Assembly (NCBI GenBank): GCA_030612725.1
Contig: JAUWNJ010000025.1
Coordinates: forward strand, 1 to 46,215
From: Planctomycetales bacterium
GTDB lineage: Bacteria > Planctomycetota > Phycisphaerae > SM23-33
DNA: 46,215 nucleotides
Reading direction: 5' to 3'
Position numbers and translations under genes: made by a program
The notes under the pieces: generated by a model
Seen by the model: only the letters and a program-made list of their open reading frames with translations
The model's database searches: none
What the model was told of the DNA's origin: nothing
In this document: positions 36,499-44,442 of the stretch, piece by piece
How positions within the stretch are numbered: position 1 is the stretch's first letter
How the letters are laid out: every line of letters starts with the position of its first letter

Positions 36499-38010
36499 TC
36501 AGCGCACAACCTCTGTCTCTATTTGTCTGAGTATCTTAATAACGTCAGCCGCCGATTTTTCAAATGCATCTTTAGCATCTTCATCGTTGGAAGCAATCCA
36601 CGCTTCCACTTTCTCAAGGAGCGACTTTTTCAATGCCTGTTTCTCTTGCCCTCCCTGCATTGGAAGGATAGCGTTAACGTCCTCCCGAAATTGGTCAGGA
36701 TAATACTGTTCAAAGTCGTGTTGTGATAGTTGAAGAAACCGGTCTTCGCTCCAGCCTGACTTAGTATAAACGTCCTTCAGCTTGTCAATGACCTTCTTCT
36801 CCTCCTCACCCCCATCAACCACAACCCAAGCACCTTTTTTATACATTGGCTCCAAGTGGAGGAACACCAGTAGGTTATTTAGAGCGTCGAACTTCTGGGA
36901 CACCTGCGACAGTGATCGTGCGGAATATGTGCGTAGGCGATTGACAAGTTTAGGCGCAAACCAAGGGATTAGGTACTCCCTGATGATTTTTTCTGCCGAC
37001 GACTCTTCTAGGACTAACCAGGCATCCCAAAGGTCAAGGTCGCTGAACTCATACCCAAGTTCATCCAAAATGTCTTTACGTGCGTCGCATGTGGGCTCGA
37101 TTTCTCGTATGGTCGATGTCGGTAGTCGGTCCTTTAGGCTAAACTCAAAGTGAAAAATTTTGGCTTCGGGCAATGCACCCAGCTGCTTCAGGACAATGTT
37201 CGAGTGTGTTGTAATTATGAATTGGTTATTCTCTGACTTCTCTGCGATAAATCCGAGGAGTATCTTGAGTGCTCGCGGATGCACATCGTTCTCTGGTTCT
37301 TCGATCAGGAACAACTTGTCTTTAGCCATGGCTAGGTCTTTCACAAGCCCGAGGATGTTCATCACCCCTTCGCCCATTGCCAACAGAGGGATATTCTGCA
37401 TATCATCGACCGTATAGACCGCTCGCTTGCCGCCATCAGTGTGCGCTGCCGTAATATTGAAGCCGAAGATGTCTTTACAGGCACGCATGTAAAACTCGTT
37501 GGCTGGCAATTCAGGATTGGAGAGCCGGTCAATTTTCGCGTTCAGGTTTTCAAAATTTTTGAGAACGCTTTGAACTATACTAGATGTTACTTGTTCTTTA
37601 AGTTCAGCAACCTTTCGCTTGGAGATAAAGGGATAAATAAAATTATTCGGCTCTCTGTTTTGTATTCGTCCGACCAGTTCAGTTTGGCCCTTGGAACTTT
37701 CTTGGGCTGAAAGAACCAATTGTCCCTCGTTCCTTGGGTTACGTTCTAAAAATATCCTTTTGTATTTACCCTCAAAATATATCCTGTCAACATCTTCAAA
37801 GTATATCTCGGCACGGACTTCTTGCTGGTGAATTCTGACATCCGTCAACGCCATGGAAGGTAATTGATCCTGGAGCGACAATAGCGGAAGAAGGACGGTA
37901 GACTTGCCTGAGTTGTTAGGACCAACCAAGATGTTCACTCTTCGTGAGAGAGGGAGCGTTTCGTCCTCAAACGAACGAATGTTCAGAAGGCGAAGCTTTT
38001 TGATCCACAT
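36499..38010 (-). CDS. OLD-like AAA ATPase (AAA15/AAA21) with possible TOPRIM domain
   Basis: The 503-residue protein begins with an SMC/RecF-type ATPase (MWIKKLRLLNIRSFEDETLP; Walker A GPNNSGKSTVLLP at 31-43). It continues to the ABC-like LLAMGEGVMNILGL signature and Walker B FLIEEPENDVHPRAL, with TTHSNIVLKQL after it. The C-terminal third (about 335-440) has WLVLEESSAEKIIREYLIPW and VVVDGGEEEKK, which fit the Glu and Asp positions of a TOPRIM nuclease fold as in OLD proteins. Such proteins are often anti-phage effectors, but no partner such as a UvrD-like helicase is adjacent. The gene is flanked by REP-like hairpins. Confidence 0.8.
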   Translation of the reverse strand: MWIKKLRLLNIRSFEDETLPLSRRVNILVGPNNSGKSTVLLPLLSLQDQLPSMALTDVRIHQQEVRAEIYFEDVDRIYFEGKYKRIFLERNPRNEGQLVLSAQESSKGQTELVGRIQNREPNNFIYPFISKRKVAELKEQVTSSIVQSVLKNFENLNAKIDRLSNPELPANEFYMRACKDIFGFNITAAHTDGGKRAVYTVDDMQNIPLLAMGEGVMNILGLVKDLAMAKDKLFLIEEPENDVHPRALKILLGFIAEKSENNQFIITTHSNIVLKQLGALPEAKIFHFEFSLKDRLPTSTIREIEPTCDARKDILDELGYEFSDLDLWDAWLVLEESSAEKIIREYLIPWFAPKLVNRLRTYSARSLSQVSQKFDALNNLLVFLHLEPMYKKGAWVVVDGGEEEKKVIDKLKDVYTKSGWSEDRFLQLSQHDFEQYYPDQFREDVNAILPMQGGQEKQALKKSLLEKVEAWIASNDEDAKDAFEKSAADVIKILRQIETEVVR

Positions 38011-39211: not shown

Positions 39212-39237
39212 GCAAAAGTTAATGTAGAGGACAGATA

Positions 39238-39282
39238 GGGACTTGGGACTTGGGACTTGGGACTAGGGACTAGGGACTAGGG
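39238..39282. repeat. Six tandem GGGACTT/GGGACTA units
   Basis: Three copies of GGGACTT followed by three of GGGACTA and a final GGG. The change of the last base in the second half suggests expansion in two steps. Confidence 0.9.
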
Positions 39283-39485
39283 AAAAGAAAAACAGAGGAA
39301 CAGAAGAAAAGAAAAACAACAGATGAACCAATCAATCAATCAATCAATCAACCAATCAACCAGTCAACCATCAACTTGGGCCGTTTAGGCAAGATAGGCA
39401 ATGGCGGATTTTTTAAAATGGGCGTAAAAATGACCTCGAAAACCGCAACTGCTTGCACGGAAAGAACTTATGGATTTTGGAAACT

Positions 39486-39592
39486 TTCCCAATTGTTCCC
39501 AATCGTTCCCATTTGTTCCCAATCGTTCCGAATCGTTCCGAATCGTTCCCAATCGTTCCGTTTCGTTCCGTTTTGTTCCGTTTCGTTCCACA
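39486..39592. repeat. GTTCCCAATC-type tandem array
   Basis: About ten units of 10-11 bases (GTTCCCAATC, GTTCCGAATC, GTTCCGTTTC). The units drift in sequence from left to right. The array gives stop-free frames on both strands. Confidence 0.9.
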
Positions 39593-39803
39593 ACGTGGTC
39601 CTCGCAGAGTCCTCGCAGAGTCCTACGGACTACGGACTACGGACCGCTTCGGCCAGGAAATGTTCCCTCGCCAGTACCTGCAGGGATTGGGACGGAGCAC
39701 TCAACTTCCCTTGGTAAATTTTCTCGCCGGAATCGGGATATTGCTGTATAATAAGGTATGGCTCATTGCTCGACTGAATAATGGATATGAAGGAGGATTT
39801 TCC

Positions 39804-41057
39804 ATGAAGGCTCGCGCGCGCGTTGTTGTGCTTATCCTGTCGGGGCTGATCTTGTGGGTTAATGCATCGGCAGTGGCTGAAGACGCTCACCTTCAGGCGG
39901 CAGGAGCCATCGGGCTTGGATACGTGGGGATGTACTACGGCCTGACTAATCCCGCCGGCGTCTGGTACGAAGGCGAGGATATTATGGGTTCGCCTTCGAC
40001 GACCTGGCTTGCGGTGGTGGATACGGGCGCATCGGCGACTATCCTGGGTAAATCGACGCAGGAGGCCTATGCGGCAGGGACGCCCATTCCGATGCAGGAT
40101 TACCCGGCAGTGAAGTTTTCCGATATAGGTTTCGGCGGGACGGAGGATTTCGCCGTTACCCAGTCGGTGCAGGTGGTGCTTGCCGGCCAGAAGGAAGCGG
40201 AAGGTGATACGGAAAATCACAGTCTTTACACAGCCTACACTCCGCCGATGACGTTGGCGGCGTCCCGTAGTTACATCGGCGGCGGCGCGATGGACTTTGA
40301 CATCATCGGAACGAGCATTCTCCAGGGTCAGGTTCTCCATGTGGACCCGCACCATCTGGAATTCCTTCGCTGGATGCTGATTACGATGGCAGGGTCGCTT
40401 GGACAGAATCCTCCGGCGGCGGGCGGCGACGTCCTCTATATGCCGATGACGATGCAGAACTTTTTCACCGGGGATCAGAACGCCGCGGTCGGCGACAATC
40501 CGATGATTCCGATGAAGATTCGCCGAACGGATTCGGACGCTTTCGCCGAACGGTCAGCCTTGTTCGACACCGGTTCGCCGGTCAACTTCGTCTCGGAATC
40601 TTTCGCACTCGCTGCCGGTATAGACACAAGCGCCACAGCCGAGTTGACGATACCCGTTTCAGGCGTCGGCGGCGAGCCAACGACGCGCGACGGATGGTAT
40701 GTGGACGCGCTGGCGCTGGAACTGGGCGTCGGCAGGGAAGGCGACGACCTGGTGATTGGAAATACAGCCGTTTTCGTCATCCCCGACGCGGAGATGCCCG
40801 GCGGCCTGGACGCCATACTGGGAAGCGGAATCCTCTCACCCGCGAATACGTTTGCCGATACTACTGTCTCGGAGTGGTACGTCGATATGCGGGACAGCGA
40901 CGAGGCGTACCTTGTAGTTGTGCTTCCCGAACCGACGGGGATTGTTCTGCTGATGGTGGCCTTTCCGGTCATTTTTCGCCGCAGGCGCAGGCGTTTGGTT
41001 CCGTTTCGTTCCCATACGATCGCCGAATTAGCTCAGTGCCAGAAGGCTCTCGACTGA
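39804..41057 (+). CDS. Two-lobed aspartic-protease-like exported protein with PEP-CTERM-like tail
   Basis: The 417-residue protein has a signal peptide (MKARARVVVLILSGLILWVN). Two retropepsin-like motifs follow: AVVDTGASATILG (Asp73) and ALFDTGSPVNFVSE (Asp255). Each is followed by the hydrophobic-hydrophobic-Gly element of its lobe, FDIIGTSIL (about 165) and AILGSGIL. This is the layout of a pepsin-type bilobal protease. The C-terminus LPEPTG, then a hydrophobic stretch and an Arg6 block, is a PEP-CTERM-like sorting signal. AAGGAGG is 7 bases before the ATG. The last 10 codons overlap a DUF2442 fragment on the other strand, so the original end may be altered. Confidence 0.8.
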   Translation: MKARARVVVLILSGLILWVNASAVAEDAHLQAAGAIGLGYVGMYYGLTNPAGVWYEGEDIMGSPSTTWLAVVDTGASATILGKSTQEAYAAGTPIPMQDYPAVKFSDIGFGGTEDFAVTQSVQVVLAGQKEAEGDTENHSLYTAYTPPMTLAASRSYIGGGAMDFDIIGTSILQGQVLHVDPHHLEFLRWMLITMAGSLGQNPPAAGGDVLYMPMTMQNFFTGDQNAAVGDNPMIPMKIRRTDSDAFAERSALFDTGSPVNFVSESFALAAGIDTSATAELTIPVSGVGGEPTTRDGWYVDALALELGVGREGDDLVIGNTAVFVIPDAEMPGGLDAILGSGILSPANTFADTTVSEWYVDMRDSDEAYLVVVLPEPTGIVLLMVAFPVIFRRRRRRLVPFRSHTIAELAQCQKALD

Positions 41058-41118
41058 TATGTCCTCGTCGAGCGCTTCCCAGTGGAGGCCGATGCCGCCG
41101 CCGATGAGACGCCAATCC
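41028..41118 (-). pseudogene. 3' fragment of a DUF2442 gene
   Basis: The minus strand encodes DWRLIGGGIGLHWEALDEDI then SVESLLALS and a stop. This is nearly identical to the last 29 residues of the intact DUF2442 protein at 42541-42759. The fragment is cut at its 5' end exactly where the hairpin repeat at 41119 begins, and its stop lies inside the 3' end of the aspartic-protease gene. Confidence 0.9.
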
Positions 41119-41219
41119 TGAATTAAGGGGACGGAGCACTTAATTATTTTGACGCAGGCTGTCTTCTGTGGTAGTTTCAACTATACGGTAATAATTAAGT
41201 GCTCCGTCCCCTTAATTCC
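41119..41219. repeat. REP-like inverted repeat (GGGGACGGAGCAC type)
   Basis: Two perfect inverted arms of 28 bases (41121-41148 and 41190-41217; AATTAAGGGGACGGAGCACT and onward) enclose 41 bases. Twenty-seven bases of the right arm occur again at 46037-46063, and a 12-base core (GTGCTCCGTCCC) is seen at 44848. CCTTAATT words repeat downstream to about 41262. Confidence 0.9.
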
Positions 41220-41327
41220 TTCCCTTAATTCCCTTAATTCCCTTAATTCTTAATTCTATTAACCCGTCCCCACGGGCTTGTGCCCGTGGCTACTATCAAT
41301 CGCCCCAAGGGGCTACGATGCGACACA

Positions 41328-44196: not shown

Positions 44197-44442
44197 CTAT
44201 CGTGAACGGCGGCGTGCGTGGCGGGTGAGGACGCCGATACCACCGATAATCAGCAGGGTCAGTACGCCGGGTTCGGGCACGGAAGTCTGGGCGAATGAGC
44301 AGTTGGAGTCGTCGGATGCCGGATCGACTTGAACGGACGGATTTTCGCCGGATGAGATGGTCGAGTCGTTGATGCCGGCGGGGGTCGATGAAAGCGGCAG
44401 GAAAAACAGAGAAATAAGAAGTATTGATAATATATGTTTCAT
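44197..44442 (-). CDS. Tiny PEP-CTERM protein
   Basis: The 81-residue protein is a signal peptide (MKHILSILLISLFFLPLSST), a 35-residue Ser/Asp/Asn-rich mature part, and a textbook PEP-CTERM tail (SVPEPGVLTLLIIGGIGVLT then RHARRRSR). The tail directs processing by an exosortase; none is encoded here. The mature part is too small for a usual domain, so it may be a surface peptide or matrix piece. AGGAGA is 10 bases from the ATG. A longer upstream frame runs into the MITE and is not used. Confidence 0.8.
   Translation of the reverse strand: MKHILSILLISLFFLPLSSTPAGINDSTISSGENPSVQVDPASDDSNCSFAQTSVPEPGVLTLLIIGGIGVLTRHARRRSR

Follow-up and report, generated by a model that had tools for sequence, protein, structure and literature searches.

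The DNA analyzed here (the window) is a stretch of 46,215 nt of contig JAUWNJ010000025.1 in assembly GCA_030612725.1, derived from a Planctomycetales bacterium (Phycisphaerae; SM23-33). An open reading frame on its forward strand encodes a protein of 417 amino acids (a.a.), which we predict to be an exported aspartic protease with two retropepsin-like lobes and a C-terminal sorting signal. The features of this gene are as follows.

39804–41057, + strand: coding sequence (417 a.a.) of the predicted two-lobed retropepsin-like aspartic protease with a PEP-CTERM tail
39790–39796, + strand: Shine-Dalgarno-like AAGGAGG, 7 nt 5′ of the ATG, read from the sequence
39804–39878, + strand: predicted Sec signal peptide, residues 1–25, with an AVA/ED site; inferred from the sequence, with helix 2–21 and strand 27–31 in the model
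39909–40403, + strand: lobe 1, about residues 36–200, from the alignment, the comparison of lobe profiles and the fold match
40020–40028, + strand: DTG 1 (VVDTGAS) with the predicted catalytic Asp73 (codon 40020–40022), invariant in 29 aligned proteins
40116–40157, + strand: putative flap 1, FSDIGFGGTEDFAV, residues 105–118, with conserved G109 and G112, aligned with flap 2; low pLDDT
40299–40322, + strand: hydrophobic-hydrophobic-Gly motif of lobe 1, DIIGTSIL, residues 166–173, with G169 invariant in the 26-member alignment
40488–40928, + strand: lobe 2, about residues 229–375, from the PF13650 match at 251–340, the alignment and the fold match
40566–40574, + strand: DTG 2 (LFDTGSP) with the predicted catalytic Asp255 (codon 40566–40568); Asp and Gly invariant, T or S between them
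40656–40697, + strand: putative flap 2, VSGVGGEPTTRDGW, residues 285–298, from the alignment and the lobe comparison; low pLDDT at 287–290
40812–40835, + strand: hydrophobic-hydrophobic-Gly motif of lobe 2, AILGSGIL, residues 337–344, with L335 invariant and G340 nearly invariant
40926–40994, + strand: PEP-CTERM tail (PEP, transmembrane helix and Arg cluster), residues 375–397, PEPTGIVLLMVAFPVIFRRRRRR, from TIGR02595 and the relatives
40995–41054, + strand: 20-residue extension beyond the Arg cluster, not common to the relatives, diverging from L042 right after the Arg codons

The neighboring genes in the window encode an AAA ATPase, a WD40 protein, a LarA-like protein and a NagA-like amidohydrolase. 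No conserved operon partner was found, and synteny was seen with the nearest relative, L042, only; since no neighbor is conserved, the neighborhood gives no pointer to the substrate. In L042, the genes that flank an AAA_15/AAA_21 ATPase (OLD-like) region of the window (36499–38010, − strand, extending to about 39400) are direct neighbors; from this sequence comparison, an insertion or a deletion appears to separate the two genomes at this point. Short tandem arrays with units of 7–11 bases (TAGGGAC, AACCAATC, TTCCCAATCG, GTCCTCGCAGA and TTCCCTTAA) occupy the intergenic DNA on both flanks of the gene (39236–39624 and 41220–41249), and GTTCC words similar to the array units are also found at the 3′ end of the protease gene. 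This 3′ end and the next 300 bases (40995–41320) differ from L042, whose frame continues into the shared downstream sequence, suggesting that the stretch past the Arg cluster was replaced or inserted; the 20-residue extension is probably such a replaced 3′ end. The tail of a second, small PEP-CTERM protein (44209–44280, − strand, 17.2 bits) lies between the LarA-like and NagA-like genes.

The initial annotation had proposed two DTG motifs (Asp73 and Asp255), each with a hydrophobic-hydrophobic-Gly (HHG) partner, and both pairs are present in the open reading frame at the normal spacing. When the protein was shuffled 20,000 times, 112 shuffles contained one or more correctly spaced units of D[TS]G and HHG, and none contained two. 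Two conserved D[TS]G motifs, each with its HHG partner, are what identifies a single-chain clan AA aspartic protease at the sequence level. D73, T74, G75, D255 and G257 were invariant in a 26-member alignment and again in a 29-row alignment, and the conservation of both Asp and both motif Gly residues extended to relatives with 16–20% identity. The sole exception seen was L028 (1468–2088, − strand), a fragment at a contig end with FDSAA in lobe 2 (DSA in place of D[TS]G), which is possibly an inactive family member, judging from this substitution. Variation of the motifs among homologues, which the annotation had named as an observation that would speak against the protease, was thus absent from both alignments, the L028 fragment aside. 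The dN/dS values against three relatives (0.32, 0.20 and 0.34) indicated purifying selection on the protease gene.

These data bear on whether the protein is instead a catalytically dead surface protein, which binds a substrate or ligand through a protease fold. The structurally similar PE_PGRS16 is a precedent for such a protein, as it has the fold and yet no activity was observed in vitro in an earlier study, as cited in PMC6819658, and the DSA found in place of the lobe 2 DTG in the distant L028 fragment fits the same explanation. However, the invariance of both Asp and the motif Gly residues down to 16–20% identity would be unexpected if catalysis had been lost, and we regard a dead enzyme as unlikely. 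The protein is very probably a real two-lobed aspartic protease of a recognized kind, exported and probably active, as judged from its sequence and the structure model described below.

The whole protein matched PF13650 (Asp_protease_2) with an E-value of 1.2e-8 and 35.9 bits, against the curated gathering cut-off of 24.3, and the best-matching stretch was lobe 2. Every one of the 26 family members matched the same model, with E-values no higher than 0.01. Lobe 1 of the query protein alone matched no Pfam model at E 0.01, and lobe 1 alone matched PF13650 in 14 of the 26 members. When the profiles of the two lobes were compared by hhalign, they aligned with an E-value of 1.1e-8, with the DTG motifs and the GxGG segments of the two lobes falling in register, so that the two lobes are detectably homologous to each other at the profile level. 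In retropepsins, the position of this GxGG segment is occupied by a glycine-rich flap; the single flap of pepsin belongs to its N-terminal lobe. In the alignment, each lobe of the planctomycete protein has a GxGG segment at the retropepsin flap position, the geometry of which is of low confidence in the model. In addition, lobe 1 carries DTGA, a motif typical of retropepsins (PMC12239564).

The pepsin-type plan proposed in the initial annotation raises the alternative of a genuine bacterial member of pepsin family A1, inherited by descent or acquired by horizontal transfer from a eukaryote. The bilobed plan, the many A1 enzymes at a Z-score of about 14 in the fold search and a match of the lobe 1 profile to cod pepsin (E 0.012) are all consistent with this origin. 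In contrast, no A1 Pfam model was matched by any of the 26 family members at E 0.01, whereas nearly all of them matched PF13650 or PF13975. The best PDB sequence matches of the whole family were DDI1 (0.0018), 9iy9 (0.0082) and ApRick (0.018), and that of the lobe 1 profile was ApRick, the Rickettsia retropepsin-like protease (0.0059); a plain phmmer search of the query protein against the PDB sequences gave chance matches only. Both lobes have a putative flap and are still similar to each other, and the bacterial A1 proteins reported in 2009 have no signal peptide (PMC2761423). A1 membership was rejected on the Pfam and PDB sequence matches, and we consider an A1 origin very improbable. Of the proposed plan, the bilobed single chain stands, while the assignment to pepsin itself does not on the present evidence, given the retropepsin-like matches and the putative GxGG flap in each lobe. 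Retropepsins of family A2 in the strict sense are one-lobed homodimers, whereas two lobes are fused in one chain here. By its sequence profile, the family belongs to PF13650; it is not demonstrably A1, nor is it A2 in the strict homodimeric sense. Furthermore, judging from the sequence and the model, the first strand follows the signal peptide too closely to accommodate a pepsin-type propeptide, which makes acid-triggered zymogen activation unlikely.

The structure was predicted by AlphaFold from 10 sequences without templates. One of the five models was usable, with a moderate confidence (pLDDT 69.8, pTM 0.68), the other four having values of 36–40. Its lowest-confidence parts include residues 102–113 and 287–290, both of which fall in the putative flap segments, and this is what mobile flaps would give. 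In the fold search, the model matched bilobed aspartic proteases across residues 36–375, that is, over both lobes, which bears out the earlier proposal of two lobes in one chain. The top match was 9iy9 (Z 16.1, 248 residues, 3.7 Å, 8% identity in the structural alignment), followed by endothiapepsin and BACE (about Z 14), Rv0977 (4ehc; Z 13.8, 227 residues, 3.5 Å) and the covalently linked HIV-1 protease (Z 13.7, 192/203 residues, 3.1–3.2 Å). The whole-chain TM scores by Foldseek were modest, about 0.4, so how the lobes are arranged relative to each other is uncertain. A second AlphaFold model, of the mature domain only, was weaker (pLDDT 57.5, pTM 0.49) and recovered the same fold (Z about 10). 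The matches in a viral fold library were mostly one-lobed retropepsin-like proteins, none of them closer. From the full-length alignment of the model to the bilobed enzymes, we infer that Asp73 and Asp255 form one active site.

We then consider the C-terminal tail, residues 375–397 of which matched TIGR02595 with 18.2 bits (cut-off 16) in the genome search, and marginally, with 10.4 bits, in the whole-protein scan. A signal peptide, a PEP motif, a transmembrane helix and an Arg cluster, the sequence elements of a PEP-CTERM substrate, are all present, and PEP is invariant in a 10-member set including the query protein; in relatives L009 and L010, the tails read VPLPST/IPLPST in place of PEP. 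The source genome contains 68 PEP-CTERM matches, 64 of which are above the cut-off, and two complete-looking exosortases (PF09721 at 1.9e-56 and 3.0e-54), both above the cut-off of TIGR02602. Their Cys, Arg and His motifs, which we take to be catalytic, are in place (AEACSGMR, NVLRVA and MHTFTG in one; NVCNGLRT, NSLRIV and FHDFSG in the other). The PEP-CTERM-like anchor proposed earlier is accompanied by a predicted signal peptide and by exosortases in the same genome. One of the two exosortases sits in an apparent exopolysaccharide gene cluster, and the PEP-CTERM/EpsH system, with Planctomycetes among its carriers, has been proposed to sort proteins toward the exopolysaccharide layer (PMC1569441). 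L041 (739–2403, − strand) encodes a 555-a.a. fusion of an exosortase with an EpsI-like C-terminal domain, which comes closest to the XrtD/XrtW models without reaching their cut-offs.

PEP-CTERM proteins mostly end just past the Arg cluster. The 20 extra residues of this protein, together with a different extension in the nearest relative, L042, might mean that the signal is spoiled and that the tail of a genuine protease is merely an inner-membrane anchor, without sorting by exosortase. However, PEP, the helix and the Arg cluster remain intact, with a score in the genome search that exceeds the cut-off, and the other relatives end normally, which makes an anchor without sorting quite unlikely.

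Other DTG-DTG-PEP-CTERM proteins, for which the initial annotation had suggested a search, were found. Among the genomes of the same class, 54 of 397 had a match. A close family with at least 54% identity occurs in eight genomes, including the source genome, and keeps the D[TS]G and HHG motifs as well as the PEP tail, with a dockerin-like insert ahead of the tail in two members. Remoter relatives, down to 16–20% identity, are also two-lobed, and their ends vary among PEP-CTERM, dockerin repeats, both or neither; typically, the planctomycete relatives carry a tail of the PEP-CTERM or dockerin type. One relative, L054, comes from outside the class. PF13650 is present in 161 of 294 genomes of the phylum, often with two matches per open frame, and no relatives of the protease were found on viral contigs. 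By sequence, the DTG-DTG family with exosortase or dockerin tails is widespread in planctomycetes and not an isolated case, so the architecture is less surprising than it first appeared.

Several known systems share parts of this architecture. The solved exported protein of Bacteroides fragilis (9iy9), for which no paper was found, likewise has two DTG motifs in a two-copy PF13650-type chain. The mycobacterial PecA/PE_PGRS35 and its homologue PE_PGRS16 (Rv0977, 4ehc) are also bacterial, surface-located and bilobed aspartic proteases with DTG/DSG motifs (PMC6819658), but PecA and PE_PGRS16 use type VII secretion via a PE domain rather than Sec and exosortase, and their sequences are far diverged. 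APRc of Rickettsia and RloA of Pseudomonas, the latter a secreted retropepsin, share the DTGA-type motif and the putative flaps, but consist of a single lobe and function as homodimers (PMC12239564). Shewasins, the bacterial A1 pepsin homologues, are bilobed monomers with two DTG-type motifs, but are cytoplasmic, lack a signal peptide and belong to the A1 sequence family (PMC2761423). The tethered, or covalent-dimer, HIV-1 protease has two retropepsin lobes and two flaps in one chain; it is man-made and symmetric, whereas the lobes of the planctomycete protein are diverged and carry inserts. In the open-access papers searched, no description of PEP-CTERM together with an aspartic or aspartyl protease was found. 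The earlier claim that the combination was undescribed therefore holds, within this literature, for the exosortase/dockerin-tailed family, and does not extend to bilobed exported bacterial aspartic proteases, of which the surface protein PecA (PMC6819658) and 9iy9 were already known.

Taken together, we favor an exported single-chain aspartic protease composed of two fused retropepsin-like lobes and sorted by exosortase toward the surface or matrix, with a probability of roughly 0.7. In the proposed mechanism, the signal peptide would direct passage across the inner membrane, and the two lobes would pack together and bring Asp73 and Asp255 into a single catalytic dyad, by which a water molecule would be activated. 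An extended substrate peptide would then be covered by the glycine-rich flap of each lobe, an arrangement that retropepsins achieve by dimerization and that a single chain would provide here. Anchored in the inner membrane by its PEP-CTERM tail, the protein would stay there until the tail is cleaved by one of the two exosortases, after which it may be handed toward the outer surface or the exopolysaccharide layer. There, its most likely role would be the processing of other surface or matrix proteins, or the degradation of external protein. A more far-reaching reading, which we hold to be rather doubtful, is that these proteins are natural single-chain retropepsins: products of a bacterial duplication and fusion parallel to that of pepsin, which kept both flaps, are delivered via exosortase or dockerin and serve as house-keeping proteases of the surface or matrix.

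If active, the protein would represent a further branch, secreted and sorted by exosortase, among the bilobed aspartic proteases of bacteria, few of which are known, and would be a candidate enzyme for surface-protein processing in planctomycetes. With its similar lobes, each with one putative flap, the family would also be a good test system for the transition from a retropepsin-like dimer to a pepsin-like monomer.
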